The notes under the pieces were generated by a model that ran no database searches, was not told the origin of the DNA, and saw nothing but the letters and a program-made list of their open reading frames with translations. The translations under genes and the position numbers were made by a program. From a virus, in the IMG/VR virus record IMGVR_UViG_3300046787_000211, positions 1 through 42,952 of that record: a stretch of DNA of 42,952 bases, one strand, 5' to 3'. Of the stretch, positions 7,727 through 20,328 are shown in pieces. Each line of letters opens with the position of its first letter. The first letter of the stretch is position 1.

Positions 7727-10212
7727 TCTGATTCCTCTTCTTCGCCAAGGATGTCCTTGACGCTTGACATGTTGTTGCCAGCACCAATCTGCAGCAGGTC
7801 GATACCTACCAGCATCTTGAAGCCTGCCGACTCGCTCTCGCGGATAGGCATGCGGGTCTTCATCTCGCGGACGAGAGAGTTCTGGGTGATTGGCTTCTCG
7901 CCGTTGTCGATGCACCAGTCGCGGTATGCGTTGAACAGCGATACCTTGGTGACGCTCGATACGTCAGAGAGGATGGTGCGCTCGTCCAAGAACTTTGCGA
8001 TGTGGTCCTCTTCGTGGCGGTAGTTCTGGGTTGCCATCTTGACCGACTCAGGCTCGTTGAACCCTTGGTGCGTGACACGGACAGCGCCGTCAATCATCCA
8101 CTGCAGGATACCTGGGCCCTCCTCCTGAATGAGAAGCTGCGCGAAGTTCTCTTTGCGCTTCTCGGCAGGGATGGTTTTGCGGAAGTCAATCTTGCGCAGA
8201 CGACGCCAGAAGCCTTCGCCACCAGACTTTACCTCAGGAAGGTGGTTGACAGCCATGAACAGAGTATGCGTAGGCTTGAAGTCAAAGAAGTTCTGACCCA
8301 TGAAGCGGGCCGAGAGGGTGTCGCCACCTGTGAGCATCTTGACGCGGGACTCGTTGAACTTACCGTCTGGTCGCGTCTCTGAAGCAACAGCAAGTCGTAC
8401 ACCACGGAGGCGTGCGATATCCGTAGGGTGAGCATTTCCGGTTGTGTCAAGCAGGAAGTTCTCAGGCATTGTTGCTGAGTAATCGCCGAGGATACCCGAG
8501 ATGACATCAAGGATTGTTGACTTACCATTTGCACCGGTTCCTACGAAGACCGGGAGGACGTGGAATCGCGAGTCGCCGAAGAGAGCTGCACCAAACAGTT
8601 CTTGCAGGTACAGAATACGGTCTTCGTCCTCGATGATGTCCTTGAGGAATGTATCCCAAAGCGGAGTATTACCAGCTCGCGGAGCAACGGTGGTCTGCCG
8701 AGTATTGTAGTCAATGCCCTTACGGCTTGGACGAAGTTCGCCTGTGCGTAGGTTGACAATCCCATCAGGAGTACATAGGTCGTTAGCCTCAGCATCAAGT
8801 TGAATTGCGGAGACAAGGACTTCAGTATCAGTGCCAGCAATCGTAATCGCATTTTGCAACCTATCCTTGTTCGCTGAAGCCTGCGCCCACTTGAGCTGCT
8901 CAGGGTTCAGGTCGGTGTTCTCGCAGAACGCCACTGCTTCAATGGCGGTCTGGATGATTGACTTCTCCTTGTCGAGGACGTAGCGAGTGCCGTCCCACTT
9001 GTGCCAGCCCACGTCGGTTACATGCTTGTAGTCGTTCTGCATGAAGTGGATGAGGCGGTACGAGTTGGCTGCATCAGTGCGGCCAAATGCAGCGTACGAG
9101 TCCTGATAAATCTGAGCCAGGTCGCCATCGCTGTACTTGTCCTGTACGGCAGGGTTGCCCAGTGCAGCCTCTGGGTCACCTGCGAATAAATCCTTGTGCT
9201 CGTGGCCCTTGAGTTCTTCACGCAACTTGAGGTCGGTGAACGACTCGACACGTGAGATGGCCCAGCGGTTTGCTCCACCAATCTCACCTGGGTTCATTTC
9301 GCGCGCAGGAGCCTGCTTGAGGAACTCTTGGAAGCGTTCCGACAGTTGGCCCACAAGCACCTCTGCGGACTCCTTGGTGAGGCATCCATTGCGGTGTGCG
9401 GCGTTCAAACGGATGAGCTGCTGGAGCAACCAGCCGTGACGCGACTTAGGGGCGGTGACAGTCGGGCGAACCGAGTTGTAAAGGTTAGTGACCCAGTGGC
9501 AGTCGTGAGCCGCGTACTCCCAGTCAGCGGCCTGCGAGATAGCCTCGTAGGTTTCGCTGCTGGTCGTGACAGTTGCGAAGCCGTGGGTGATGAGGACGTC
9601 ATCAATCTCTTCGATTGATAGTGGTCGCCAGTTGGTAGGGAAATCTACTTCAACCGGTACAGGGGCACTAGCGTCCTTGAAGTTGATTGAACCCGGAGCG
9701 CGAAATATTCGCGGTAGGTCGAAAACGGAATCGAGATGTCCGCCCTGAGAGGCTGCAATCCAACGGACAAAGGCACCCCATCTAAGCAGGAGACTAGTAC
9801 CAACCTCCGTAGTGAAATCTTCTTCAGGGTCGATGCACCAGTAGGGTTGTAGACCATGACCAGAGTGGACCACCACGGAAGGTGCGACTCCCAGTAGGTC
9901 TGCAATGAGTTCGACGAGTTGACTGGCGTTCTCCTTGGATTGGATGCCATTTTCTTTATAGTCGATGTCCACCCAAAGGGCAGCCAGCCTATTGATATCT
10001 TCGGCTCGAGCTCGGCTGCTAGTAGCAGAGGGGTTGATTTCATACCAAACATTCGCTTTCAAATCCGTAAGAGTCTCGACAACGGCATCTGCCAGTTGGA
10101 GTTTCGTGGCCTTCACCTTGAAGCCCTGAGCTGCGCTTTGGTAGCAAATCTTTACGGTGTCGTCGTCGGTGTAGCCGAGACGCTCTAGCAGTTCGATAAA
10201 TGGCTTGGTCAT
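7711..10212 (-). CDS. Primase-helicase (archaeo-eukaryotic primase fused to D5-type SF3 helicase)
   Basis: An 833-residue replication enzyme. The N-terminal primase-type domain has WVDID (D82, D84), SGHGLQPYW (117-125) and DLPRIFRAPGSIN (165-177), the ordered motifs of archaeo-eukaryotic primases. The C-terminal SF3/D5 helicase has a Walker A at 558-566 (GTGANGKST), a B region near 606-613 (RLAVASET), motif C with N656 (FMAVNHLP) and an arginine pair at 670-671. I chose the ATG at 10212, behind AAAGGA, over 10272. It probably unwinds and primes the phage genome. No DNA polymerase gene was recognised beside it. Confidence 0.92.
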   Translation of the reverse strand: MTKPFIELLERLGYTDDDTVKICYQSAAQGFKVKATKLQLADAVVETLTDLKANVWYEINPSATSSRARAEDINRLAALWVDIDYKENGIQSKENASQLVELIADLLGVAPSVVVHSGHGLQPYWCIDPEEDFTTEVGTSLLLRWGAFVRWIAASQGGHLDSVFDLPRIFRAPGSINFKDASAPVPVEVDFPTNWRPLSIEEIDDVLITHGFATVTTSSETYEAISQAADWEYAAHDCHWVTNLYNSVRPTVTAPKSRHGWLLQQLIRLNAAHRNGCLTKESAEVLVGQLSERFQEFLKQAPAREMNPGEIGGANRWAISRVESFTDLKLREELKGHEHKDLFAGDPEAALGNPAVQDKYSDGDLAQIYQDSYAAFGRTDAANSYRLIHFMQNDYKHVTDVGWHKWDGTRYVLDKEKSIIQTAIEAVAFCENTDLNPEQLKWAQASANKDRLQNAITIAGTDTEVLVSAIQLDAEANDLCTPDGIVNLRTGELRPSRKGIDYNTRQTTVAPRAGNTPLWDTFLKDIIEDEDRILYLQELFGAALFGDSRFHVLPVFVGTGANGKSTILDVISGILGDYSATMPENFLLDTTGNAHPTDIARLRGVRLAVASETRPDGKFNESRVKMLTGGDTLSARFMGQNFFDFKPTHTLFMAVNHLPEVKSGGEGFWRRLRKIDFRKTIPAEKRKENFAQLLIQEEGPGILQWMIDGAVRVTHQGFNEPESVKMATQNYRHEEDHIAKFLDERTILSDVSSVTKVSLFNAYRDWCIDNGEKPITQNSLVREMKTRMPIRESESAGFKMLVGIDLLQIGAGNNMSSVKDILGEEEESEWWKR

Positions 10213-10232
10213 TGCCGGTCCTTTCTGAAGAA

Positions 10233-10271
10233 TGATGGGGGCAGGCAGAAGGGGGATGCCTGCCCCCATCA
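10233..10271 (-). promoter_or_regulatory. 15-bp stem-loop between SSB-like and primase genes
   Basis: A perfect 15-bp inverted repeat (10233-10247 with 10257-10271) flanks a 9-nt loop. On the minus strand it falls 20-60 nt ahead of the primase start and just after the SSB-like stop. It lacks a strong U-tract, so it looks more like an attenuator or mRNA-stability structure than a full terminator. An alternative, shorter hairpin uses the C-run at 10274-10279. Confidence 0.6.
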
Positions 10272-10285
10272 AAGGGGGGATGAGA

Positions 10286-10903
10286 CTAGAAGGTCTCGCT
10301 CAGTGCTGCCTCGACGGCGTACTTGTTGACGCCCAGAGCGCCTGCGATTTCAGCAGTGTCAAAGCCAGCTGCTTCCATCTTACGCGCCTTAGCGGCCTGC
10401 TCAGCGTTCAACTTGCCCTCGCCGTCAATCTCCTTGGCACCAGTGGCCAGGAGAGCGTCAACAGCAGGATTGCTGGTGCCCTTCTCGATGGCGATGCTGT
10501 AGAGCTTGACGTCGTTGAAGCCCTTGGTCTTCGCAGGCTTGGTGCCCGAGAAGGTGATGGTGAACTTCGAGCCGAGCTCGAACTTCTGGAGGCCCGAGTC
10601 CTTGAGAGCCTGCTTTGCAGCAGTCAACTTCTGACCGAAGAGGTAGACGCGGCGCTCGCCGTTGTCGTCCTCAAGCGATGGGTCGCGCAGGTCGGTGTCG
10701 AGAGTGACCTGAATCTGGAGCTGCGGCTTGCCGTCGTCCCAGAACTTTGGCTCGCCAGTTGCGAAGTCGCGAACCTGAACGGTCTGGAGGTCGGTGATGG
10801 TGCCGGTGTAGCTGGTTCCAACCTTGACGTCCTTGAACGACAGGCTAGGGACAGTGACGCTGCTAAGCAGGTCGTTTGGGTCAGGTAGGTTTACGTCAAC
10901 CAT
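10286..10903 (-). CDS. Single-stranded-DNA-binding-like protein with C-terminal HTH
   Basis: A 205-residue protein. Residues 20-140 are beta-rich (SYTGTITDLQTVQV, QLQIQVTLDTDL, KFTITFSGTKP), compatible with an OB-fold. The C-terminal segment (AGFDTAEIAGALGVNKYAVEAAL, about 179-201) is a helix-turn-helix. Proteins of this shape sit between Cas4-type exonuclease and primase genes in many actinobacteriophages and are usually called ssDNA-binding. The ribosome site is TAAGGA. The function is inferred from neighbours and fold type. Confidence 0.65.
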   Translation of the reverse strand: MVDVNLPDPNDLLSSVTVPSLSFKDVKVGTSYTGTITDLQTVQVRDFATGEPKFWDDGKPQLQIQVTLDTDLRDPSLEDDNGERRVYLFGQKLTAAKQALKDSGLQKFELGSKFTITFSGTKPAKTKGFNDVKLYSIAIEKGTSNPAVDALLATGAKEIDGEGKLNAEQAAKARKMEAAGFDTAEIAGALGVNKYAVEAALSETF

Positions 10904-10936
10904 GATTTTTCCTTACTGTTTCTACTGTTTTTATTG

Positions 10937-11683
10937 TTAGATGAGCGACGATACATCGCCCACTTCGCTCTGCTCGTACTTTTTACAGTCCCAGCAGAAT
11001 GAAGCCTTTGGTTGCTTCTCGATGACGGCATCCCAGCCGACAACCTCAGCAACATCAATCATATTAGCGGCTGCTTCCAACGCGTCAAGTGCAACCTGAC
11101 GGTCATAGCGCAACATTACAACCTGGGCCTCGGCGAGGTCAAGGTCACGAGGCAAGAACGAGATAGCAACGTGGCTAACCTGCTTGCCGAGCTGCTCCCA
11201 GCCGTAGCCGTAGAGCATTGCCTGAACGCGGTACTGGTCAGAGACCTTGCCCTTGGCGGCCTCCTTGATTTTCTTCTCGCCAACAATCTTCCAATCGTTG
11301 ACGACGAAGTGCTCGCCATCGACGCTGTACGCGCCCATGTCGCATGAGCCTGCGAGCTTCAATGACTTGTACTCGAAAACCTGTAGTCGCTGCTCTAGGT
11401 GGTAGTCCTGGGGCCAGCGAGCAAAGCCCTCCTCTAGCGAGGCGTGTACGGCGGTACCGACGAACGGAAACCATGAGCCTTCGGGCTTCTTTGGTCGCCC
11501 CGCCAACTTGCGTGCGACGCACTTGCGGCAGTCGCTGCCAATCTCAGAGATGCCGATGGCTTGCTGTAGTGACCGCTCAGTAATAAAGAGGTCTCGTATG
11601 CGAGCGAGCCAACGCTCCGCAGTCTCCACTGCTGCTTTGTCGACTTCATTATGTTCATCGACCTTGACGATTTGGATTGGCAT
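10937..11683 (-). CDS. Cas4-family RecB-like exonuclease
   Basis: A 248-residue protein with a PD-(D/E)XK core: H80 (GTAVHASLE), D115 (GSCDMGAY), D130-x-K132 (VVNDWKI) and the QYRVQAMLYGYG helix at 150-161. Cys52 and Cys55 near the N-terminus pair with Cys230 and Cys233 at the end, the usual ligands for the Fe-S cluster of Cas4 proteins. Such enzymes resect DNA ends for phage recombination. No CRISPR array or cas1/cas2 is present, so this is a phage recombination enzyme, not an adaptation module. It overlaps the WhiB gene by 29 nt. Confidence 0.88.
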   Translation of the reverse strand: MPIQIVKVDEHNEVDKAAVETAERWLARIRDLFITERSLQQAIGISEIGSDCRKCVARKLAGRPKKPEGSWFPFVGTAVHASLEEGFARWPQDYHLEQRLQVFEYKSLKLAGSCDMGAYSVDGEHFVVNDWKIVGEKKIKEAAKGKVSDQYRVQAMLYGYGWEQLGKQVSHVAISFLPRDLDLAEAQVVMLRYDRQVALDALEAAANMIDVAEVVGWDAVIEKQPKASFCWDCKKYEQSEVGDVSSLI

Positions 11684-11993
11684 TTATACTCCTTAGGTAT
11701 TCTCGGCGCATCTTCCGGCGGTCAAAGGGACTGAGCCCTCCCCACACGCCGTATGGTTCATCAAACTTTAGCGCATACTCCCGACATTGAAAAATAATTT
11801 CGCAGCCGAGGCAAGCTTTCTTAGCGGCAGAGTAATCTGCTTGAGTAAGGACGGGGTCTCTACCATCCGGGTGATGGTCGGCGACATCGAACCAGAGGTC
11901 CGGTGCGTTAGAGCAGGGTGGTTGACCGCCAGCCTCCTCGAGGGCCGCTTGCGCGAGGTCGAGTGCTGCTTTGAATCTGGCTTTGTCATTCAT
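11655..11993 (-). CDS. WhiB-family Fe-S transcription factor
   Basis: A 112-residue protein with the WhiB signature: C27, C61, C64 and C70 (CLGCEIIFQC) as Fe-S ligands, then YGVWGGLSP at 81-89 and a basic tail (DRRKMRREYL). WhiB proteins bind the primary sigma factor and are essentially confined to Actinobacteria and their phages; phage WhiBs can alter host transcription or superinfection. This is the strongest host clue in the window. It lies between the SNF2 helicase (8-nt overlap) and the Cas4 gene, so it is expressed with the replication genes. Confidence 0.93.
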   Translation of the reverse strand: MNDKARFKAALDLAQAALEEAGGQPPCSNAPDLWFDVADHHPDGRDPVLTQADYSAAKKACLGCEIIFQCREYALKFDEPYGVWGGLSPFDRRKMRREYLRSINANPNRQGR

Positions 11994-13488
11994 TCGTTCC
12001 CTTGTCTAGCATCTTTCGTGCAAAGTCTACGCCTCGTGAGCCATCAAGCAGTTTGCGGGTTAGGCGGAAACGCTTGTTTACCTTCTCGGCAATCGCGTGG
12101 TCAATGGTATTGAGCGCGATTAGGTTCCAAATCGTTACTGAGTGGTTGCTCGACGCGCGGTGTACGCGGTCCTCAATCTGCTCAATGCGGTCTGGGTCAT
12201 ACGGCGAGTCCAGCATGATGAGGTCATCTGCTTTGTCGAGGTTGATACCTACGCCCATGTTGCCAGATAGCAACACGATACGCAAATCGCCATTTTGGAA
12301 TTGTGCCTGCGCCCAGTCACGCTTGGCTGAGTTGGTATCGCCAGAGATGACCTCACTAGTAACGCCACGCGCTACTAATTCTTCCTGAAGCCAGTAGAGC
12401 ACCCTGGTGAACTGGCTAACGATGACGACCTTAGCTTGGTTATCTGCCATCGCGTCGTACTCGAGGAAACCGCGCTCGCCGAGCCATTCAAGCAACCATT
12501 CAAGCTTTGCCGATGGCTCGCCCACGATTGGCTTGTACTCGTCATCCCATGCGCAGATAGCCTGCTGGCGTGAGCGGAGCGCAAAAATCATCGCATCGGC
12601 CGTCTGGGCATCTTCTTCCTTGCTCAGCAGAGCGGTCTCGTACTTGAGCTGCTCGGTGAAGTATCGGGTGCGCTGGTCTGCGCCAAGTTCAATCTCGACA
12701 TCCACATAGCGCTTTGGTGGCAGCTGCGGGAGCACTTCTGCTTTGGTGCGGCGTATCATCCACAGGCGGTCCTTTTCTAGCCAGAGGCGCTGGTTCTTGA
12801 TGCCAGCGGTTGCCTTGATGCTACGAGTGCGTGATACCTGTTGCTCGGTAATCCAGAAGTTCTCTTCGAGCCATGCCCAGCGTGAGCCGGTCTGACCGTA
12901 GCCCTCAAGGAAACGCCAGGTGCCGTAGCGGTTCTCCAACTTGCCTCGGTCGGGCGTACCAGATACGGCTACCTTGATGGCGTTGGGGTTGAAGTCCAGC
13001 ACCTGAAGCCCGCGCCAGAAGTTAGTCATCTTGCGGTCGTTCTGGATAGGCAGGACTAGGTGGCTCTCGTCCACGATGACGGCATCGTATGGAGTGAACG
13101 CTAGTTCGTGAACACGGATACCGTTCTTGGTCATGTCAATGGCGTTGTGGTTCGCCAGCACGATGACAGGCACGTCCTCGAATACTTGCTCGAACTGCTT
13201 GCTCTTCTGCTTAGCCGTGCCCTTGCTGACATCAATCACGCCCACGTTGTAGCGAGGCTTGATGAAACGCTCGATGGTGTCAATCCAAGTGGTCTGCGCG
13301 TTGATGATAGGGGTCAGGATAAGAATGTTGCTCGGGCGGTCGAACAAGCCGTCGAGTTCAAGTGCGCCTAGCACCTCGAGGGTCTTGCCCAAGCCCGGCT
13401 GGTCAGCCAGCAGGACTCGGCGTGACTCAGCGATACGCTGGGCCGCCTCGACCTGATAGTCGAAGAGGACTTCGTTTACTAGCGTCAT
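11986..13488 (-). CDS. SNF2-family DEAD/DEAH helicase
   Basis: A 500-residue superfamily-2 ATPase. Motif I is at 29-36 (DQPGLGKT), motif Ia near 57-60 (LTPI), motif II is DESH at 140-143, motif III is VSGTPDRG near 190, and the C-terminal RecA-like lobe has GVGINLDKAD and RIEQIEDRVHR (motifs V and VI). Phage SNF2-type enzymes remodel replication or recombination intermediates. It overlaps the upstream Cys-rich gene by 4 nt (ATGA). Confidence 0.93.
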   Translation of the reverse strand: MTLVNEVLFDYQVEAAQRIAESRRVLLADQPGLGKTLEVLGALELDGLFDRPSNILILTPIINAQTTWIDTIERFIKPRYNVGVIDVSKGTAKQKSKQFEQVFEDVPVIVLANHNAIDMTKNGIRVHELAFTPYDAVIVDESHLVLPIQNDRKMTNFWRGLQVLDFNPNAIKVAVSGTPDRGKLENRYGTWRFLEGYGQTGSRWAWLEENFWITEQQVSRTRSIKATAGIKNQRLWLEKDRLWMIRRTKAEVLPQLPPKRYVDVEIELGADQRTRYFTEQLKYETALLSKEEDAQTADAMIFALRSRQQAICAWDDEYKPIVGEPSAKLEWLLEWLGERGFLEYDAMADNQAKVVIVSQFTRVLYWLQEELVARGVTSEVISGDTNSAKRDWAQAQFQNGDLRIVLLSGNMGVGINLDKADDLIMLDSPYDPDRIEQIEDRVHRASSNHSVTIWNLIALNTIDHAIAEKVNKRFRLTRKLLDGSRGVDFARKMLDKGTNE

Positions 13489-14018
13489 TTGATGCCTAGT
13501 TCTTCTTTCACAAATGCCCAGAACTCGTCGGGGCTAGGGTTTAGTCGAGCGAACAGGTTGAGTTCTGCTCGTGCTCGGGTGGTGTTGTTGTTCAGTAGCG
13601 ATGCGGCGGCGTATGCCTCTTTGCGCTTAGCGTCACGCTCCGCCTTGATTTCGGCTTGGATTGCTCGGCTAGGGCGCTTTGCTCTGCGCTGGGCGTTGTA
13701 TGTGGTGACCTTTTGGTCGTAGTGGCTCTGGCACAGGCCGTGAGCCACCATTGGTTCACCGCATGAGCCTCGCATACATACTCCAGGCTCTTTGCCAATG
13801 CGGGCTGGGTCATTGCGCCTAGCCGCCTCGTAGTGCCTTGGGCATAGTCCACGAGCCTTTGCTAGGTCGCCGCAACCCTGCTCTTCACAAGGCTGGTTGC
13901 GTGGACGATACTGCTTGGCTCCGCGTTCACGGCGTTGCTGTCGGACGTAGCACGAGTGGCACATACCTTGCGCGTGAATGGTGGTGCGCTGGCACTTCGA
14001 GCAACTAGCGGTCGTCAT
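13485..14018 (-). CDS. Multi-zinc-finger protein, possibly nucleic-acid binding
   Basis: A protein of 177 residues if started at 14018 (180 from ATG at 14027). The first 100 residues hold three similar units: CSKC...GMCHSC, CEEQGC...GLCPRHY and CMRGSC...GLCQSHY, each a likely zinc site with basic flanks. The rest is helical and basic, ending in an acidic helix. Neither ATG has a clear ribosome site, so coupling to the overlapping upstream gene is likely. Such fingers occur in phage DNA-binding proteins; no nuclease core is visible. Confidence 0.7.
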   Translation of the reverse strand: MTTASCSKCQRTTIHAQGMCHSCYVRQQRRERGAKQYRPRNQPCEEQGCGDLAKARGLCPRHYEAARRNDPARIGKEPGVCMRGSCGEPMVAHGLCQSHYDQKVTTYNAQRRAKRPSRAIQAEIKAERDAKRKEAYAAASLLNNNTTRARAELNLFARLNPSPDEFWAFVKEELGIK

Positions 14019-14145
14019 GGCTGGCATCGCATTGGCAGTTGCGGTAGTCGCACGAGGAGCAAGGCTGAGGCTCGTCGAAGTCGTCCTCGAGGTTGTCGTC
14101 GCCTTGGTCGTAGTACCAGTCGGGGTTAGTCGGCCAGTTTCCCAT
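14005..14145 (-). CDS. Small acidic Cys-rich protein (46 residues)
   Basis: A short gene hidden between two others. It begins with ATG at 14145 behind an AAAGGAGA ribosome site and encodes an Asp-rich N-terminal part (NPDWYYDQGDD, then EDDFDEP) followed by CSSCDYRNCQC, a tight four-Cys cluster. Its start overlaps the end of the upstream small zinc-ribbon gene and its stop overlaps the next gene, so all three look translationally coupled. Function unknown; metal binding is likely. Confidence 0.65.
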   Translation of the reverse strand: MGNWPTNPDWYYDQGDDNLEDDFDEPQPCSSCDYRNCQCDASHDDR

Positions 14146-14335
14146 CTTCGTTCTCCTTTGGGTCGGTTTGTTTCATGGTTGGTGGAATGTAAGGGGTCAG
14201 TTCGTAAGCGTTCTGCCAGCAGTCAGCTGCTCGGCACTTGCTCACGGACTTGCCGCAGGTGTTACAGGACTGGAGATACTGGTCGTCCACAAAGCGGCGA
14301 GCGCCGGTGGTCGAGTCAAGCCATACGTAAGCCAT
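14126..14335 (-). CDS. Small zinc-ribbon-like protein
   Basis: A 69-residue protein with an AGGA ribosome site close to its ATG. Cys residues at CNTCGKSVSKC and ADCWQN suggest one metal site. The C-terminal third is charged and probably disordered. It overlaps the 46-residue gene downstream. Not recognised as a named family. Confidence 0.6.
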   Translation of the reverse strand: MAYVWLDSTTGARRFVDDQYLQSCNTCGKSVSKCRAADCWQNAYELTPYIPPTMKQTDPKENEDGKLAD

Positions 14336-14340
14336 TGTTC

Positions 14341-14721
14341 CTACTTCTTGTAGTTGAGGCGCGACTTGGTTTCGCGCGAGTACATCTCAGCGTAGTCGGC
14401 AACAGGGAAGTTCTCCAAAATGAAGTCCTTGTTGAGCGAGGTCTCGCGCCAGCGGGAAACGAACGCAACAACTGCGCCGTGAACGGTCAGTTCGTCCTTG
14501 TCGCCGATTGCGTCCTTGATGATTGCGTCAATGGCGTTCTTCTGCTTGGTCAGTTCCTTGATTGCCTCGGCAATCTCGGCGCGCTGGGCGAGCAGTTCGT
14601 TGGCGATGATTGGGTCGTTCGCCTCAATGGTCTTGGTGGTGACCTTGGTTGCCTTTGGCTTGGTCACGAGCGCCTCGGTAGCGCGCTCAATCAGGCTGGG
14701 CTGGGTGGTTTCGGTGTTCAC
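14341..14721 (-). CDS. Coiled-coil protein of unknown function
   Basis: A 126-residue protein. Residues 38-75 form a strongly predicted helix (AQRAEIAEAIKELTKQKNA), followed by a beta-type segment (VHGAVVAFVSRWRETSLNKDF) and a C-terminal helix ending in RLNYKK. Proteins of this layout often accompany nucleases in actinobacteriophage early regions, but no catalytic residues are visible. It shares a 4-nt ATGA overlap with the gene upstream. Confidence 0.6.
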   Translation of the reverse strand: MNTETTQPSLIERATEALVTKPKATKVTTKTIEANDPIIANELLAQRAEIAEAIKELTKQKNAIDAIIKDAIGDKDELTVHGAVVAFVSRWRETSLNKDFILENFPVADYAEMYSRETKSRLNYKK

Positions 14722-14945
14722 TTGGTTCTCCTAATTGGTTTGGCGGTTCTGATGATTTCGTGTATCTCATCACTTGAGACCATGCTAACCCAATGGTGTG
14801 ACATTTTTTTCATCTCGACCGCGAAGTCTCCGTTAGGTAGCGGGTTGATGTGTAGAGTCACGCCGTCTCGCTGGTGCGAGTGGTCTGGCATGGTTTCCCA
14901 GTTGTTGAGTTGTAGAACTAATGCTATGTTGCTTGGAAGTTTCAA
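14718..14945 (-). CDS. Small hypothetical protein
   Basis: A 75-residue frame beginning with TTG at 14945, without a convincing ribosome site; an internal ATG (at MPDHSHQRDG) is an alternative. It ends in an ATGA overlap with the coiled-coil gene. It would be the first gene after the terminator at 15049-15080. A minus-strand TAACAT at 14964-14969 could be its -10 and would leave a very short leader. Confidence 0.5.
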   Translation of the reverse strand: MKLPSNIALVLQLNNWETMPDHSHQRDGVTLHINPLPNGDFAVEMKKMSHHWVSMVSSDEIHEIIRTAKPIRRTK

Positions 14946-14991
14946 TCGTGTCCCAGTTGCGTAATGTTATCTAAATGTGATTTACTTACTT

Positions 14992-15006
14992 TATTGGGCG
15001 TGGTTT
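14992..15006 (+). repeat. Intergenic 15-bp repeat, copy 1
   Basis: The sequence TATTGGGCGTGGTTT occurs here and again, perfectly, at 16844-16858. Both copies lie in short non-coding gaps of the leftward early block, upstream of a gene group. This suggests a regulatory site, not coding similarity. Confidence 0.6.
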
Positions 15007-15048
15007 CTCAATAATGACGGGCTTTACTCCTTTCTCCGTCAGGTGGTT

Positions 15049-15086
15049 GAAACAGGCTGGCTTTCGGGTCAGCCTGTTTCTTTTTA
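15049..15086 (+). terminator. Intrinsic terminator-like hairpin with T-tract on the plus strand
   Basis: A perfect 11-bp stem (15049-15059 with 15070-15080) and 10-nt loop are followed on the plus strand by CTTTTTAT. On the minus strand the hairpin directly follows the stop codon of the 15084 gene, where it probably also ends transcription although the U-run there is weak. No rightward gene is present here, so the strong plus-strand T-tract may block antisense transcription. Confidence 0.7.
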
Positions 15087-15428
15087 TGTGGGGTTGCCGT
15101 CCTCGTCCACCTCGGTCACGCCGTCCTCGTCAATGAGATAACGCTTTAGCTCGACCTCAGTGCTCTCGTTGGCATCGCGGAACTTGTCCATAAAGCCCTC
15201 AAAGTCCTTTTCGCACTCCTGCGTGATTTTGATTGCGAGCGCCTGGCGGGTCTGTGCTGGGGCATCTTCAAGCCGTTTCCAGTCAGCATCGCTCCACAGC
15301 CTCGTGTCCACCACAAGCCCTCCCGAGTTGAAGTCACCTTCGGTGCTGATGAATAGGCGGTGCTCGGGTAGGAACTCAAATGGGCTAGGCAATGGGGACT
15401 CCAGTTCGGTCGTAGTTGATGCCGTCAT
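15084..15428 (-). CDS. Small acidic hypothetical protein
   Basis: A 114-residue acidic protein, last of a chain of small early genes. The N-terminal 20 residues are Ser/Thr/Pro-rich, the middle is helical (KITQECEKDFEGFMDKF), and the C-terminus is Asp/Glu-rich. It overlaps the upstream gene by 44 nt. The stop codon lies in the T-tract of the hairpin that follows. Not recognised. Confidence 0.6.
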   Translation of the reverse strand: MTASTTTELESPLPSPFEFLPEHRLFISTEGDFNSGGLVVDTRLWSDADWKRLEDAPAQTRQALAIKITQECEKDFEGFMDKFRDANESTEVELKRYLIDEDGVTEVDEDGNPT

Positions 15429-15723
15429 AAGTGTAGTTGCCGGTATCTGCGTCTACATACACGCTCGGGTTGTCGAGCCAGTCCTTGTCGTATGAGCCAA
15501 CATCAATGCCGTAGCCGAGGTTGCCGTCATAGTGCCCGAGTTCGTTAGCGAACTTGTGGAACAACTGCGCGGTGAGGTAGGCAGGGTCGCCGATTCGGGC
15601 ATCGCTGGCTGATAGGCAGGACTGAACTGCGGTGAGGTTGTCTGTGCCCGCCCAATGTCCGTAGATGCTGATTGGCTGGCTAAGGTTCTCGCTGGTGATT
15701 TCAATGACACTGCGGTTTCCCAT
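15385..15723 (-). CDS. Conserved small phage protein of the MGNR...IYGHW type
   Basis: A 112-residue protein. The N-terminus (MGNRSVIEI, then ISIYGHWAGTDN) resembles a widespread actinobacteriophage and mobile-element protein that starts MGNRAVITF and has IYLHWNG. The C-terminal half is rich in Tyr, Asp and Gly. The start codon overlaps the stop of the 46-residue gene upstream (TAATG). Biochemical function is unknown. Confidence 0.65.
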   Translation of the reverse strand: MGNRSVIEITSENLSQPISIYGHWAGTDNLTAVQSCLSASDARIGDPAYLTAQLFHKFANELGHYDGNLGYGIDVGSYDKDWLDNPSVYVDADTGNYTYDGINYDRTGVPIA

Positions 15724-15863
15724 TAGTTGTTCTCCTTTAGGACTAGGTTGTAAATCTCTTGCAAGGCGATTAGGTCGTTCAGTGGGACGCTTGGGTCTGC
15801 GAGCAGCTCGCCCAAGTATCCGATTAGGGTGTCGGCCTGCAGGCCGTCGATTGCGATTTCCAT
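15723..15863 (-). CDS. Small acidic protein (46 residues)
   Basis: A short gene from ATG at 15863 to a stop that overlaps the next ATG (TAATG). It has a good ribosome site (AGAGGAGAAC) inside the preceding gene, and its own 3' end (AAGGAGAAC) supplies the site for the next gene. The product is a single amphipathic helical protein (TLIGYLGELLADPSVPLNDL). Not recognised. Confidence 0.65.
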   Translation of the reverse strand: MEIAIDGLQADTLIGYLGELLADPSVPLNDLIALQEIYNLVLKENN

Positions 15864-16003
15864 TAGTTGTTCTCCTCTGAAATGGCTACATCGTCATAGC
15901 CAGCGCGGGTGTAAGCCCAAGCAGCGAGACTAGCCTCGGCTGCGGTGAGGTAGCGGTCGTTGATTTCAACGCCACCAACCCATACTGAATACTTCTTAGA
16001 CAT
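15863..16003 (-). CDS. Small hypothetical protein (46 residues)
   Basis: A short gene from ATG at 16003, overlapping the upstream gene by 8 nt and the downstream start by one base. The product begins MSKKYSVWVGGVEINDRYLT and ends EENN; the same EENN-type end is forced by the ribosome site for the next gene. It may be a small beta-alpha protein. Function unknown. Confidence 0.65.
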   Translation of the reverse strand: MSKKYSVWVGGVEINDRYLTAAEASLAAWAYTRAGYDDVAISEENN

Positions 16004-16199
16004 TTGCGAACTCCTCTGGGTCTAGCCAGCCGTCATACGGCTCGATTTCGTCACAACGGAATAGGTCTGCGGTCTCGCCGAGGTAGTCCACCAAGATGCG
16101 GTATGACTGGTCTTCTGCGTCCTGCGCGTTGGTTGCCTCGTCAATGGTGATAGTCATTACGGCGTAGTCGGCAACCCATTGGGTGTTGAACTTGGGCAT
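15996..16199 (-). CDS. Small acidic hypothetical protein
   Basis: A 67-residue acidic protein with an AGGAAG ribosome site. Its pattern (VMTITIDEATNAQDAEDQ) resembles small actinobacteriophage proteins with a short beta strand and amphipathic helix, and it ends in an Asp/Glu-rich segment. It overlaps the following gene by 8 nt. Not recognised. Confidence 0.6.
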   Translation of the reverse strand: MPKFNTQWVADYAVMTITIDEATNAQDAEDQSYRILVDYLGETADLFRCDEIEPYDGWLDPEEFANV

Positions 16200-16201
16200 T
16201 A

Positions 16202-16444
16202 CTAAACTTCCTGTTCGATAGTGCTGTTGATTTGGGTAAGGATTGCGCTGTAAATGGCTTCGTCCTCGTAGTCAAAGCCACCGGAAATGTCTTCCAGCGT
16301 TGCTCGCCACGCCTCGTCTGGGTCTTGCGACTCGGCGAGGTCGTTCTCGAATGGGTCGCGCGTCCACCAGCCGATGAGGATTGGCTCGTTCTGGTCGAGG
16401 CGCGAGAGGGCTGCGATTGCTTGGCGCGGGGTTAGTGCCTTCAT
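16202..16444 (-). CDS. Small acidic hypothetical protein
   Basis: An 80-residue protein. The true start is ATG at 16444, which overlaps the stop of the upstream gene (TAATG); the longer frame upstream has an Arg/Pro-rich composition typical of a shadow frame. It starts with a helix (TPRQAIAALSRL), then ILIGWWTRD, and is acidic in the C-terminal half. The GWW motif after a short helix recalls other small phage early proteins. Function unknown. Confidence 0.6.
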   Translation of the reverse strand: MKALTPRQAIAALSRLDQNEPILIGWWTRDPFENDLAESQDPDEAWRATLEDISGGFDYEDEAIYSAILTQINSTIEQEV

Positions 16445-16782
16445 TAGTTTCCAGCCTCCGCGTCCTGTTCGCTGGCGATTGACTCCAACTGGTTGCGCTT
16501 GAACTCGGACTCGATGTGGTGGGCGATTGCCTGACGGATACCCTCGTGGAGGTAGTCCAACTCCTTGTCGAGGATACGGGACTGGGTGAACGATAGCCAG
16601 AGGTCTTCGGCGTTGTCGCTTGCCCACTCCATTAGGGCTGGGTTGTCGCCGTCAATGTCCTCGTTCTGGACTGCGAGTTCAATGTCTTCCTTGCTGAAGA
16701 AAGTCATTACGATTTGCTCTTCGGGGTCGAGCCAGTCGTTCAACTGGTCTACCGCCGACTTAGCCGACTGGGATAGTGGCAT
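16444..16782 (-). CDS. Acidic helical hypothetical protein
   Basis: A 112-residue acidic, helix-rich protein with a strong ribosome site (AAGGAGTATCAA before ATG). It is first in a run of overlapping genes that extends to 15084. No motif or membrane segment is visible. High acidity and small size fit early phage effectors or DNA mimics, but this is only a possibility. Confidence 0.6.
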   Translation of the reverse strand: MPLSQSAKSAVDQLNDWLDPEEQIVMTFFSKEDIELAVQNEDIDGDNPALMEWASDNAEDLWLSFTQSRILDKELDYLHEGIRQAIAHHIESEFKRNQLESIASEQDAEAGN

Positions 16783-16843
16783 TTGATACTCCTTAGGTTG
16801 GTGGTTGGTGGTGCTAAGTAAATGCTAGGTGGTTTTGTGGTGG

Positions 16844-16876
16844 TATTGGGCGTGGTTTGATAACGAGTGGATAACG
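16844..16876 (+). promoter_or_regulatory. Intergenic site: 15-bp repeat copy 2 plus a TAACG pair
   Basis: The 95-bp gap holds the second perfect copy of TATTGGGCGTGGTTT (16844-16858). Directly beside it is TAACG at 16861-16865 and again at 16872-16876, an 11-bp period identical to the pairs in the 19.8-20.2 kb control region. The complementary strand also reads TTATCCACT, one base off a DnaA box. Confidence 0.55.
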
Positions 16877-16877
16877 C

Positions 16878-17495
16878 TTACTTGCCCTCCTTGATTGGTG
16901 GAACATCGCCGACAGGGAGCGCAACGATTTCGGCATCGGTAATCTCCCAGCCCTGCGTGTCAGCCCACAAACGGCGGGTGGCGAGGGTTGAGCCAACGTA
17001 ATACTGCTCGAGGTTCTTGGTCATCTGACCGCGGGTGACGTGCTCGAGGGCTTGGGCATCTTCGACACTAATGCCCTTCCACATTCCGTAGAGTCGGCGC
17101 GAGTGCTCCCTGATGCCGTGACCATACTTCTCCTGAAGAATGTCGCCAAGGGTCGAGCCCCAACGGAAGAACTGGTTGGCGGTGGTGATTGACGCGAGTT
17201 GCGATAGGCGCTTGCGCTTTTCGGTGTCCTGCTCGAGCGAGTCGTCTACAGGGATTTCTGCGTCTAAGCCGAGTGGCACGTATCGGCGGTTCGTGCCTCC
17301 GTTGCGTTCCAGCCACAGGTCAATCGTGGCTTTGCGGTAGTAGGGGGCTGCGCCGATTTGAACAAAGCCGAATGGGGCTTTGTCGTGACGGGCTGGGAGT
17401 CGCCAGTTTCGCAACTGGTTGAGGGTCATTCCTGTGAGTTCGGATACCTCTCGCGATGAGAGGAGTTCGCCGAACGCGGGGTCGAATAGGGGCAT
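16878..17495 (-). CDS. MerR/excisionase-like HTH DNA-binding protein
   Basis: A 205-residue protein. Residues 10-60 form a winged HTH (LLSSREVSELTGMTLNQLRNWR) with a basic wing ending in the YYRKATIDLWL helix, as in excisionase and MerR-type domains. The rest is helical with conserved-looking Trp and Tyr positions (FFRWGSTLGDIL). The ribosome site is AGAAAGAG, 6 nt before ATG. It lies next to the DnaA boxes and behind a good promoter, so it may be an origin or early regulator. No integrase accompanies it. Confidence 0.7.
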   Translation of the reverse strand: MPLFDPAFGELLSSREVSELTGMTLNQLRNWRLPARHDKAPFGFVQIGAAPYYRKATIDLWLERNGGTNRRYVPLGLDAEIPVDDSLEQDTEKRKRLSQLASITTANQFFRWGSTLGDILQEKYGHGIREHSRRLYGMWKGISVEDAQALEHVTRGQMTKNLEQYYVGSTLATRRLWADTQGWEITDAEIVALPVGDVPPIKEGK

Positions 17496-17511
17496 TTGTA
17501 TCTCTTTCTGC

Positions 17512-17524
17512 TAGATGAGTAAGT
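17512..17524 (+). repeat. TAGATGAGTAAGT element, copy 1
   Basis: This 13-bp sequence in the leader of the HTH gene recurs at 19841-19853 between the -35 and -10 of the early promoter. A related GAGT-N4-GAGT site is at 17687-17701. The positions fit an operator. Confidence 0.5.
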
Positions 17525-17553
17525 CCAAGGGTTCGGGGCTACTCAATGACTAC

Positions 17554-17582
17554 ATTTTAGGGGTTTTGGTTGAAATGGGCAA
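17554..17582 (-). promoter_or_regulatory. Promoter of the HTH gene
   Basis: On the minus strand TTGCCC (17577-17582) and TAAAAT (17554-17559) are separated by exactly 17 bp, a good sigma-70-type arrangement. Transcription would start near 17547 and give a leader of about 50 nt with the ribosome site at its end. Confidence 0.65.
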
Positions 17583-17686
17583 GGGGTTAGGGGAAAAAAG
17601 GGTTGATTTCTAGGGTTTTTCTCTATTTCTAAGTCGGTTCTTAAGAAAAATTAGCGTTCATTACTAATCAACTCTTTTTAGGGAAA

Positions 17687-17701
17687 ATGAGTAAATGAGT
17701 T
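17687..17701 (+). repeat. Operator-like GAGT-N4-GAGT site
   Basis: ATGAGTAAATGAGTT here differs by one base from ATGAGTAAGTGAGTT at 19844-19858, which overlaps the early promoter. Both lie in non-coding control regions of the leftward early block. Confidence 0.5.
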
Positions 17702-17750
17702 AGCAACGCAGTTTTGATTTGGCAAGCGACTTGGGATTTACTCGTGGAAG

Positions 17751-17771
17751 TTATCCACAGAGTTATCCACA
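17751..17771 (+). other. Candidate replication origin: two perfect DnaA boxes
   Basis: TTATCCACA, the strict DnaA-box consensus, occurs at 17751-17759 and 17763-17771, a 12-bp period. It lies in the 278-bp non-coding gap 17496-17773, next to an AT-rich stretch (about 17600-17690, including TTAAGAAAAATTAGCG). Two perfect 9-mers this close are very unlikely by chance. With no phage initiator or polymerase recognised, host DnaA could load here. It could instead be a DnaA-responsive promoter. Confidence 0.65.
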
Positions 17772-17773
17772 GG

Positions 17774-17926
17774 CTATGCCTCCTCCGTTTCTGCGTTGGT
17801 GACACAGGCGCAAGGGGTCACGACAAGGTTGCCGTTGATGCGTTCGATGGTGGCGAGGCAGTCGCATACATCGCACAGGGTGACGTATGGGTGCTTGGCG
17901 GTGATTTTGATTTCGCGGGCGTTCAT
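17774..17926 (-). CDS. Small zinc-binding-like protein (50 residues)
   Basis: A short gene from ATG at 17926, overlapping the upstream stop by one base. The product has CDVCDC near residues 18-23 and CAC near 39-41, a compact metal-binding pattern, between short beta segments (EIKITAKHPYVTL). Its stop is 3 nt from the second DnaA box. Function unknown. Confidence 0.65.
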   Translation of the reverse strand: MNAREIKITAKHPYVTLCDVCDCLATIERINGNLVVTPCACVTNAETEEA

Positions 17927-18114
17927 TAGAGTGCCTCCTCGGTCACGTCTTCAAGCCACCAGTCGGCTGGTGCTTTGACGACACTTGCGAGGTAGTCGTT
18001 GGCGATTGCGTCAGCAACAGCCTCGCCGTTGTCGGTGCGGATAGCGATAGTCATTGATAGCCCGCCAAGCGGGTGGTTGAACTCGTAGACGCGGAGCATC
18101 ATCGGTGCGGACAT
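17926..18114 (-). CDS. Small hypothetical protein
   Basis: A 62-residue acidic protein between two TAATG overlaps. It has a short beta region (MTIAIRTDNGEAV) and an amphipathic helix ending WWLEDVTEEAL. An internal ATG (LSMTIAI) is a possible second start. Not recognised. Confidence 0.55.
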   Translation of the reverse strand: MSAPMMLRVYEFNHPLGGLSMTIAIRTDNGEAVADAIANDYLASVVKAPADWWLEDVTEEAL

Positions 18115-18407
18115 TAGTTTGCCTCCTTTAGGCAGTTGTGGTATTCGGCGTGGAAATAAGGCATAGCCTCATGGCAGGTGGAGCAGTAGTCAATCTGGCT
18201 ATCCTCGTAGACGGCAGACGCGGTGGAGTCGGCGATTACTAGCGCCTCGATTGCGGTTAGCAGGTCGCGATTGGCAGGGGTATCCTCCATTTCGAGGGCA
18301 AGGCGGATACCAGCCCGCAGCTCGGGCACAGGTGGCGTTCCAGCCGCCACCGCCTGCCGTTGCCACGATGAAACGATGTGGTCGAATGTCGGGTGTAGCG
18401 CGGTCAT
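18114..18407 (-). CDS. Small protein with C-terminal Cys/His site
   Basis: A 97-residue helical protein. The C-terminal part carries CSTCHEAM, then HAEYHNC, a likely single zinc site. Start and stop both take part in TAATG overlaps, so expression is tied to its neighbours. Not recognised. Confidence 0.6.
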   Translation of the reverse strand: MTALHPTFDHIVSSWQRQAVAAGTPPVPELRAGIRLALEMEDTPANRDLLTAIEALVIADSTASAVYEDSQIDYCSTCHEAMPYFHAEYHNCLKEAN

Positions 18408-19012
18408 TACGCCACCTCCAAGACATCGGCAACCTCGCGCACGCGGGCAGGCTTATCGTCATAGCGAACCTCGCGGATAATCGCGCCCTTGCCGTTGCGG
18501 GCGATGATTTCCCAAGTGTGGCGGGCGCGGTATGGGTGAACACGAACGCCAACAACAAAGTTCGCGCGGTTGCCCTCCCGAATAGCCTCGTTGCGCGCCT
18601 CGTAGTATGCGCGGTCAATCTCATCGCAGGCGGTCTGCCACTCGCGGTATGCCTCGCGATACGCCTCGATTTCGGCGCGGTGCGCCTCGGAGTGCGCCAA
18701 CAACTCGCGGGCGGAGAGAATACGCGCCTCAATGAGGGCGATACTGGCGCGGGCGGATACCTCAAAGGCAGCGAGGCGCTCCGCGTTGGTTGCCGTGTAT
18801 TCGGCGCGCCCCTCTCGCCAGTTCCAAACCTCCGCTTGGTCACGGCATAGCAGTTCGGGGCTAGGGGTTGCCTCGCCGGAGTTGCCACGCTCCGCGATAG
18901 GGGCGAGGTTCTGAAAATTGCGGGCGTATTCGTGGAGCAACTCGTAATAGCGAGTCACGACAGGCGGAGACTCGGGGCGGGCGGGCTTTTCGGCGCGGGT
19001 AATCTCGGTCAT
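18407..19012 (-). CDS. Coiled-coil protein rich in Ala, Glu and Arg
   Basis: A 201-residue protein. I chose ATG at 19012 behind AAAAGGAAAA over 19084. Residues 60-170 form a long charged helix (EIEAYREAYREWQTACDEID), then a beta-type C-terminal domain (NFVVGVRVHPYRARHTWEII). Codon choice is unusually rich in GCG and CGC. It may be a structural or nucleic-acid-associated protein; not recognised. Confidence 0.55.
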   Translation of the reverse strand: MTEITRAEKPARPESPPVVTRYYELLHEYARNFQNLAPIAERGNSGEATPSPELLCRDQAEVWNWREGRAEYTATNAERLAAFEVSARASIALIEARILSARELLAHSEAHRAEIEAYREAYREWQTACDEIDRAYYEARNEAIREGNRANFVVGVRVHPYRARHTWEIIARNGKGAIIREVRYDDKPARVREVADVLEVA

Positions 19013-19040
19013 AGCAGGTTTTCCTTTTGGTTGGTTGGTG

Positions 19041-19358
19041 CTAGTTGGTTTCGGTTGGGCAGTCGTGTTCAAGTTCGACCTCACGCCAAGCGTGCTCGAA
19101 CTGGTCGCGATAGTAAAGGTAAAGGTCGATTGCCATTAGGCGGTCGATTGTGTCACCTGAAGCAATGCCGAGTTCTTGCCAGCGGTCAGAAAATTCGCTA
19201 GGTAGTTCTATCCATTCACGGATAATCTCGTTCGTGTATGCCGGAATTTCAGAATCTGCCAGTTCGCCAAGGTAATCCTCGACATAGCGCGCCTCTGAAA
19301 TTTCCTCGCGGTTATCGCGAACAGTGCTCAAAATCTTGTCGTAGGTTGTTAGTGCCAT
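19041..19358 (-). CDS. Acidic helical hypothetical protein
   Basis: A 105-residue acidic protein with a perfect ribosome site (AAAAGGAGTAACCGAA before ATG). It is all-helical in pattern with several Trp and Tyr residues and ends DCPTETN. The same AAAAGGAGTAACC leader precedes the next upstream gene, so both use one translation signal. Not recognised. Confidence 0.6.
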   Translation of the reverse strand: MALTTYDKILSTVRDNREEISEARYVEDYLGELADSEIPAYTNEIIREWIELPSEFSDRWQELGIASGDTIDRLMAIDLYLYYRDQFEHAWREVELEHDCPTETN

Positions 19359-19385
19359 TTCGGTTACTCCTTTTGGTTGTTGGTG

Positions 19386-19781
19386 CTACTTCTGGGCGCG
19401 CTCGTTGGCGCTAGGGTATGCGGTGGTTAGGTTCGTGTCGCCGTTGTCGTAAATGATGACATCGCGGAAAGGGACAAACTCGCCAGACTTGACGACAACA
19501 GGGGTAAAGTCCTTGATTCGGACAGAGATAGGCAAATTTGGGAGGTTGTCACGCAACACGGCGCGGAGGCGGGCGAGGGTTGTTTGAGTTGCCCAGCCAG
19601 CGGTTGAGAGGTAAACGCCACCCTGCCAAACTTCAGCGATTAGGTTGCCGTGGTAGCGAATCTCTACATACCCCTCATAAGCGGTAGCAGTCGTGTTATG
19701 GGCGATTGTCTTAGCGTAACGGTTGCCAACTAGGCGGGTTAGGTTGCCGTATGACATCACGGGCAGTTTGAGGTTTGACAT
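19386..19781 (-). CDS. Conserved phage protein with IRYHGNLIAEV motif
   Basis: A 131-residue protein, first in the early sub-operon. I chose ATG at 19781 behind AAAAGGAGTAACC. The middle (YVEIRYHGNLIAEVWQGGVYL, then GWATQTTLARLRAVL) has the same layout as the 20730 gene (YVVRSYGVLIAEAY..., then YSVTTSKHANIVKRAWG) and as many phage proteins of unknown function. It is probably a small beta-sheet protein acting early after infection. The role is unknown. Confidence 0.6.
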   Translation of the reverse strand: MSNLKLPVMSYGNLTRLVGNRYAKTIAHNTTATAYEGYVEIRYHGNLIAEVWQGGVYLSTAGWATQTTLARLRAVLRDNLPNLPISVRIKDFTPVVVKSGEFVPFRDVIIYDNGDTNLTTAYPSANERAQK

Positions 19782-19833
19782 TTTGGTTACTCCTTTTGGT
19801 TGGTTCACAGGCGGTTTGTTCCTGCTAATGAAT

Positions 19834-19863
19834 AACTTAGTAGATGAGTAAGTGAGTTGTCAA
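19834..19863 (-). promoter_or_regulatory. Early promoter P1 (TTGACA-N18-TAAGTT)
   Basis: A perfect -35 box TTGACA (19858-19863, minus strand) is followed after 18 bp by TAAGTT (19834-19839). The start would be near 19827, with a leader of about 45 nt to the first early gene. The spacer contains the GAGT repeat found at 17687, and a TAACG triplet ends about 20 bp upstream, so regulation by a phage protein is likely. Confidence 0.6.
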
Positions 19864-19884
19864 GTCGAACCAAGCATTTTTTTA

Positions 19885-19910
19885 TAACGAATTGGTAACG
19901 AAAAATAACG
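19885..19910 (+). repeat. TAACG triplet upstream of P1
   Basis: TAACG occurs at 19885, 19896 and 19906, with periods of 11 and 10 bp, so the sites lie on one face of the helix. This fits cooperative binding of a dimer or activator upstream of the TTGACA box. Confidence 0.6.
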
Positions 19911-19961
19911 CCTCGTGTAATAAAAGGAGCGCGCGCGCGCGAGTATCGCAATCAGGCTGGC

Positions 19962-19995
19962 TTGTCAAGCAACCAAAGATAACGATTCGGTAACG
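19962..19995 (+). repeat. 34-bp control repeat, copy 1
   Basis: It reads TTGTCAAGCAACCAAAGA followed by TAACG-N6-TAACG. A second copy 72 bp to the right differs at two positions. On the minus strand this places CGTTA-N6-CGTTA, then a 10-bp gap, then TTGACA. A weak TACTCG lies 17 bp beyond. Confidence 0.7.
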
Positions 19996-20033
19996 CTTTG
20001 TCGCTTATGCGCGCATAGCCAAATTGGCGCAGA

Positions 20034-20067
20034 TTGTCAAGCAACCAAAGATAACAATTTGGTAACG
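20034..20067 (+). repeat. 34-bp control repeat, copy 2
   Basis: This is the second copy of the unit at 19962. On the minus strand TTGACA at 20035-20040 is followed after 17 bp by TATGCG (20012-20017), inside the 12-bp palindrome TATGCGCGCATA. It could be a weak promoter that needs an activator bound at the TAACG pair. Confidence 0.7.
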
Positions 20068-20165
20068 GCGGATTCTGCGGGATTCGCTAGCCAAACCGCC
20101 CGACAGCCGCGCAAATTTTGTGATTATCGCACAGCCCTGCCTGTCTAGCAGACAAAACAGCAAAA

Positions 20166-20181
20166 CGTTACCAAATCGTTA
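20166..20181 (-). repeat. Inverted TAACG pair
   Basis: CGTTA at 20166 and 20177 keep the same 11-bp period but face the opposite way from the other pairs. On the minus strand TGCGATAAT lies further left (about 20121-20129), which could be an extended -10. Confidence 0.5.
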
Positions 20182-20223
20182 TAAATGGGGCAGCCAGCGC
20201 GGTCGCATAGCACCCAGCGCAGA

Positions 20224-20249
20224 CGCAGCGCACATTCCACTCGTCCCCT
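20224..20249 (-). repeat. 26-bp intergenic repeat, copy 1
   Basis: It is identical over 26 bp to 21070-21095, and its 13-bp core (minus strand GGGACGAGTGGAA) recurs at 22092-22104. Copies 1 and 2 each lie about 20-30 nt downstream of a terminator and upstream of the next leftward gene group. Confidence 0.75.
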
Positions 20250-20267
20250 AGGGGCCCCACAGGGCGC

Positions 20268-20309
20268 GAAAAACCCCGCCAGCAAGGGTTTTACCTTGCC
20301 AGCGGGGTT
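20268..20309 (-). terminator. Intrinsic terminator for the 20329 gene
   Basis: A 16-position stem with two internal mismatches (20272-20287 with 20294-20309) and a 6-nt loop is followed on the minus strand by TTTTT. It lies 20 nt after the stop of the leftward gene. Confidence 0.8.
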
Positions 20310-20328
20310 CAGGGGCTCTAGCGGGCTG

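Follow-up and report, generated by a model that had tools for sequence, protein, structure and literature searches.

An array of boxes phased to TTGACA in an uncultured phage, probably activator sites for a host response regulator and most likely for MtrA

Comparison across viral contigs indicates that an array of 11-bp direct repeats in an uncultured virus is part of a promoter architecture common to many unrelated phages, which are mostly actinobacterial where this can be judged. The array was found in IMG/VR virus record IMGVR_UViG_3300046787_000211, all 42,952 bases of which were analyzed and are called the window here. Its repeats are paired into boxes, and such boxes are found in many unrelated phages in helical phase with a -35 hexamer, TTGACA. 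We suggest that the array functions in the manner of activator sites for a response regulator, that it probably consists of such sites, and that MtrA is the likeliest regulator.

The array and its setting

The array lies in a non-coding stretch of 520 bp (19809-20328) that spans the interval from the first gene of a leftward operon to the next leftward gene. Read in promoter orientation, on the minus strand, it is CGTTACCnAATCGTTAtC, an 11-bp direct repeat, and both halves of the window boxes are GTTAC or GTTAT (GTAAC or ATAAC on the other strand). Our starting point was a sequence-only reading of the window that had listed TAACG pairs at 19885/19896 (plus a single copy at 19906) and 19980/19991, a TAACA/TAACG pair at 20052/20063, a CGTTA pair in inverted orientation at 20166/20177 and a distant pair at 16861/16872, and all of these coordinates proved correct. 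A minus-strand TTGACA is indeed present behind each of the three same-facing groups, as that reading had said, but the distances it gave (10, 10 and about 20 bp) were slightly short: measured from the last CGTTA or TGTTA, they are 11 bp for P2, 11 bp for P3 and 21 bp for P1 (Table 1). The -10 boxes that it had proposed 17-18 bp further on, TATGCG, TACTCG and TAAGTT, could be located but are poor, at 2/6 to 3/6. The -10 hexamers of the window are weak overall, with 2-4 of 6 matches, and a sigma-70 consensus scan found no full promoter in the array region. The predicted transcript start of P1 would fall near 19827. The two upstream copies of the array form a repeated unit of ~34 bp, TTGTCAAGCAACCAAAGATAACrATTyGGTAACG. 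The distant box 5 directly adjoins the end of the 16878 gene.

Table 1. Predicted elements of the array and neighboring features (window coordinates)
Feature	Position	Strand	Remarks
Box 1 (P1), CGTTACCAATTCGTTATA	19883..19900	-	11-bp direct repeat, 21 bp before TTGACA; counterpart before the orthologous L121 gene
Extra CGTTA half-site upstream of box 1	19906..19910	-	
-35 of P1, TTGACA	19858..19863	-	
Candidate -10 of P1, TAAGTT	19834..19839	-	18-bp spacer, 3/6; putative
Box 2 (P2), CGTTACCGAATCGTTATC	19978..19995	-	11 bp before TTGACA
-35 of P2, TTGACA	19963..19968	-	
Candidate -10 of P2	19940..19947	-	TACTCG (17 bp, 2/6) or GATACT (15 bp, 4/6); weak, putative
Box 3 (P3), CGTTACCAAATTGTTATC	20050..20067	-	11 bp before TTGACA; one of the closest fits to the C. 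glutamicum MtrA consensus
-35 of P3, TTGACA	20035..20040	-	
Candidate -10 of P3, TATGCG	20012..20017	-	17 bp, 3/6; weak, putative
Box 4, inverted, CGTTACCAAATCGTTATA	20166..20183	+	No TTGACA behind
Box 5, CGTTATCCACTCGTTATC	16859..16876	-	In gap before the leftward gene starting at 16782; L088 and L164 have boxes in a similar position
First gene of the leftward operon, behind P1	19386..19781	-	131 aa, Kyano_Gp96-like; start at 19781
Terminator-like hairpin with T run	20270..20309	-	Closes the gene upstream of the array

A chance origin of the array is ruled out by shuffles and by the scrambled-motif and spacing controls described below. The window holds five TAACG-N5-7-TAACG pairs where 0.07 are expected, and none of 100 shuffles reached five. 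Within 19809-20328 there are four pairs with at most one mismatch, whereas 2000 shuffles of the region gave a mean of 0.04 and a maximum of 2. Two further features were seen among the boxes: a perfect 13-bp palindrome, TGTCTAGCAGACA, at 20142-20154 between boxes 3 and 4, which is a possible second operator, and an alternating (GC)n run at 19929-19941, directly at the candidate -10 of P2.

The window virus very probably infects an actinobacterium, because its portal protein shares 37-40% identity with those of Arthrobacter phage Jasmine, Cellulosimicrobium phage DS1 and Microbacterium phage Shocker, and because the window encodes a WhiB protein. When the presumed early region (8000-20000) was compared with cultured phages by megablast, no match was returned. 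One gene of the leftward operon (19041-19358, minus strand) has a weak PHROG match to Ocr-like anti-restriction proteins (E 0.0037).

On comparison with three related contigs, the array is conserved in kin. The gene after the array has an ortholog of 61% identity in contig L121, and before the ATG of that ortholog there is a GTTA-N7-GTTA box, followed after 22 bp by TTGACA and after a further 16 bp by TAGGTT. A second box in L121 is located 20 bp before a good promoter, TTGACT-N17-TAGGCT. In contigs L088 and L164, the 16878 ortholog is followed after ~330 bp by a box, which stands 20 bp before TTGACC or TTGACA. Conservation of the paired motif in relatives had been anticipated in the sequence-only reading; it was borne out in these three contigs and in unrelated phages. 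No phased box before a promoter was found in the closest cultured relatives of the window or in three Corynebacterium phages.

Phasing of the box across viral contigs

Viral contigs were first scanned with the box alone, no TTGACA being required. Many unrelated phages were among the matches listed, several of them with TTGACA 11 or 21-22 bp further on, and these distances served as the prediction for a new scan of IMG/VR in which TTGACA had to follow at 5-35 bp (box-N(5-35)-TTGACA). This phasing scan returned 40 records with 41 sites. The most common spacings were 21 bp (13 sites) and 11 bp (10 sites), followed by 30-33 bp (6), 22 bp (4), 10 bp (3) and 9 bp (2), with single sites at 20, 24 and 28 bp. 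As a control we used a motif of equal length with the letters in scrambled order, which matched 20 records. The spacing was 10, 11, 21 or 22 bp in 30/41 sites, as against 1/20 with the scrambled motif (Fisher P=3e-7), with the qualification that 10 bp joined the predicted set only after the phasing scan. With DNA clusters as the unit (18, the window among them), 16/26 fell at these four spacings (P=9e-9 versus uniform), and for clusters not seen before the count was 7/14 (P=9e-4), although DNA clusters may still be related at the protein level. Moving the half-sites 5 bp further apart reduced the yield from 40 records to 3. A wrong-side control, with TTGACA placed before the box, gave 26 records, of which 17 were one phage family with one spacing. 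We consider it well supported by these comparisons that in many unrelated phages the box and TTGACA are in helical phase, the box coming first by 10-11, 21-22 or about 31 bp. The phased spacing also backs the earlier suggestion of a multi-promoter array with a regulator that would be bound on one helix face.

Most letters of the box were fixed in the scans, so the consensus is partly imposed. The quality of the -10 elements, taken over all phasing-scan matches, was above that of random downstream windows but not above that of the scrambled control set, and it was therefore left out as evidence. We also scanned with a version of the box that has T for C and A for G at its variable positions and is nearer to the C. 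glutamicum MtrA consensus. This T-version gave 45 records with a peak at 10-11 bp (18/47 sites; 8/22 per cluster, P=0.005). The exception, against the phasing rule, was one A+T-rich family at 15 bp. It comprises L308:133-169 and seven related loci (0.31-0.36 GC), all with the T-version box 15 bp from TTGACA, and WhiB is present in at least three of its records. A separate large family (L001-L120, e.g. L009:1616-1700) consists mostly of short contigs with a G+C near 0.42. Its members have a conserved TCCACAAAGTC...CACTAT 21 bp after the box, replacing TTGACA, and they seem to form a single promoter family whose -35 is a variant one.

WhiB has been described as a protein that only actinobacteria have and by which the phages of these bacteria can be recognized (PMC10202952). 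The boxes are concentrated in phages that carry it: WhiB was found in 19/42 box records and in 0/23 control records, which suggests that many of the box records are actinophages. Among records of at least 25 kb the counts were 13/21 and 0/9, and in the T-version set 11/44 records had WhiB. In cultured phages, phased boxes are rare. Among cultured phages whose hosts are known, exact boxes outside annotated genes were seen in M. abscessus prophages and in Arthrobacter phages Qui and Paella. In Gordonia phage Petito the last part of a small predicted gene overlaps the box; none of these cultured carriers has TTGACA at a phased distance. The exact box of M. abscessus prophage phiGD24-3 (L140:6001-6019) is flanked by the immunity repressor gene and the gene adjacent to it, and TTGACC follows after 31 bp.

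Candidate regulators

Tandem 8+3-bp repeats are typical for OmpR-type regulators. We lean towards the view that a host regulator of the OmpR/PhoB family, most probably MtrA, docks on the boxes and activates the leftward operon. The box occurs in unrelated phages that have no phage regulator in common, which points to a host protein, allowing for the many records that are fragments. The OmpR-type DNA-binding domain (PF00486) was found in 0/42 box records, many of which are, again, fragments.

The MtrA box of C. glutamicum, (A/G)TAACAATttn(A/G)TAACAAT, is located upstream of the -35 where MtrA activates (PMC3353115), and that of M. tuberculosis is cG[T/A]nA[C/T]c, present twice with a 4-bp spacer (PMC6265350). 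The P2 box and box 5 match the M. tuberculosis box completely, and the P3 box and the box at 20166 score best against the C. glutamicum consensus. Over nine sites, the geometric mean p was 0.0025 for C. glutamicum MtrA and 0.0048 for M. tuberculosis MtrA. The two boxes of L121 fit the C. glutamicum consensus only, their fit to that of M. tuberculosis being poor (p 0.2). Moreover, the base after the second CGTTA, which was left free in the scan, was T or C in 33/33 phased sites, and this is what the (A/G)TAAC of MtrA needs. MtrA itself exceeded the family threshold in 7/7 and 28/30 actinobacterial genomes checked.

Host chromosomes gave no corresponding signal. A looser box-TTGACA pattern showed no excess in 297 actinobacterial genomes (7 versus 6 control matches), and the exact box with TTGACA had 18 matches over all genomes, 7 of them actinobacterial, which is near chance. 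In small actinobacterial genomes, a search upstream of mtrA and of NlpC/P60 genes turned up no box. Therefore, given also the nearest cultured relatives, which have no phased boxes, MtrA is the best candidate and not a demonstrated binder. A box with TTGACA (19 bp) was seen in an Actinomyces naeslundii genome (L132:7645-7685), upstream of an OmpR-family response-regulator gene.

The same mechanism could be served by another OmpR-family regulator of the host, such as GlnR or AfsQ1, in which case infection would be tied to nitrogen state and not to MtrAB. We regard this as unlikely. GlnR is of the OmpR type, and its boxes are likewise 11-bp tandem repeats in a 5+6+5 arrangement, GTnAC-n6-GTnAC in S. 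venezuelae and (t/g)TAAC-n6-G(c/a)AAC in M. smegmatis; in Streptomyces they resemble, and share sites with, those of MtrA (PMC10704036). The window boxes nearly meet the looser S. venezuelae form. Their consensus fit is better for MtrA than for GlnR or PhoR, GlnR scoring only moderately lower; a PhoR-type box showed no fit (geometric mean p 0.55) and was rejected. However, the second half-site wanted by GlnR, GaAAC or GcAAC, is absent from the window boxes. The base preference after the second repeat is a misfit as well, since the (t/g)TAAC of M. smegmatis would permit A or C after the second CGTTA, a combination seen in 0/33 phased sites. The C. glutamicum-like MtrA version of the box, on the other hand, is also phased in phages.

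Somewhat less likely still, in our judgment, is a host regulator that does not belong to the OmpR family but likewise reads an 11-bp tandem repeat. Such a protein would be compatible with what is demonstrated, namely the spacing and the broad spread only, and with host genomes that gave MtrA no support, but the close match to measured MtrA sites, spacer included, argues against it.

We think it improbable that a phage-coded DNA-binding protein acts on the boxes as activator or repressor. The window does encode an XRE repressor (22191), an HTH protein (16878) and WhiB, and phage operators are frequently repeated near promoters; the products of 22191, 16878 and 5916 had in fact been named as candidates for a binding test in the sequence-only reading. 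That suggestion found no support. Relatives of 22191 and 16878 were found in just 3/42 box-bearing records, the window and its two close relatives L121 and L164, so neither is the shared binder, and the 5916 product has only a sub-threshold HTH match. WhiB, for its part, occurs in fewer than half of the box records (a count limited by fragments), and the same box is found in unrelated phages.

Finally, it is very improbable that, in place of promoter elements, we are dealing with iterons of a replication origin or with weak DnaA boxes. In favor of this reading, the direct repeats are short and the intergenic region that contains them is long, the TTATCCACt of box 5 differs from a DnaA box by one base, and two perfect DnaA boxes exist elsewhere in the window (17751, 17763), but helical phasing to TTGACA across unrelated phages would be unexpected for iterons, and the array precedes the operon in the window and L121 alike. 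The two perfect DnaA boxes are in tandem, 12 bp apart (TTATCCACA, 17749-17772, plus strand), in a long gap (17496-18113) between leftward genes, and this site is a candidate host-DnaA-dependent origin.

Proposed mechanism and precedents

If MtrA or a related host response regulator reads the boxes, we suggest that the array would be the control region of the phage's leftward, and probably early, operon. Each CGTTAYCnAATCGTTAYC box would be the docking site for a regulator dimer, bound head to tail on the 11-bp direct repeat. The box centers precede TTGACA by ~18 bp in P2 and P3 and by ~28 bp in P1. These distances differ by one helical turn, so a bound protein would turn the same face to RNA polymerase in both spacings. 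In class I activation, the activator acts from upstream of the -35. The bound regulator would thereby recruit RNA polymerase to promoters with a perfect -35 and a poor -10, a combination that suits activator-dependent promoters, and with three of these units in succession the leftward operon would be transcribed strongly and in dependence on the regulator. We infer that MtrA is the binder, that its binding activates and that the operon is early; the same sites may also be used for repression or silencing.

The boxes share with the MtrA boxes of C. glutamicum, M. tuberculosis and Streptomyces an 11-bp tandem repeat with the half-site cGTnA(C/T)c or (A/G)TAAC, spacer letters near the C. glutamicum consensus, and a position upstream of the -35 as at MtrA-activated genes. 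They differ in being predicted sites in phage, not host, promoters, in their strict spacing classes and in their more uniform letters. A host response regulator is known to act on phage early promoters in the case of Spo0A and Bacillus phage phi29, but there the effect is repression tied to sporulation, and the sites and hosts are unrelated to those of the array. The nearest precedent is the control of alphaproteobacterial phages by CtrA, the cell-cycle response regulator of their hosts, for whose sites there are EMSA and reporter data (PMC9437464). CtrA sites are clustered in intergenic promoter regions and have arisen in unrelated phages (PMC9437464). Our boxes are likewise concentrated in intergenic promoter regions of unrelated phages and would seem to need no phage-coded regulator, to judge from the 0/42 records, many of them fragments, with PF00486. 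The phylum, regulator and motif are different, CtrA being known from EMSA and reporters and the present boxes from sequence, and the link of the CtrA system to pili or flagella (PMC9437464) has no counterpart here.

The wider reading of these results falls just short of what we would call probable. It holds that there is a widespread, undescribed class of actinophage promoters, convergent in unrelated phages and switched on by MtrA 1-3 turns upstream of the -35, which ties the start of infection to the state of MtrAB (cell division, envelope). The literature searched, which covered few subscription journals, contained no report of MtrA sites in phages and no description of a phased promoter class common to unrelated phages.

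If this is true, many uncultured actinophages would read a conserved host two-component system at the transcription of their first genes, as an actinobacterial counterpart of CtrA control in alphaproteobacterial phages, and infection may read the host's own growth control. The motif could then be used on metagenomes to predict the promoters and hosts of actinophages, actinobacterial genetics would gain natural MtrA-responsive promoters, and whether phages time infection by the MtrAB state could be tested directly. Even with GlnR or another binder, a phased promoter class in unrelated phages would be a concrete regulatory rule.
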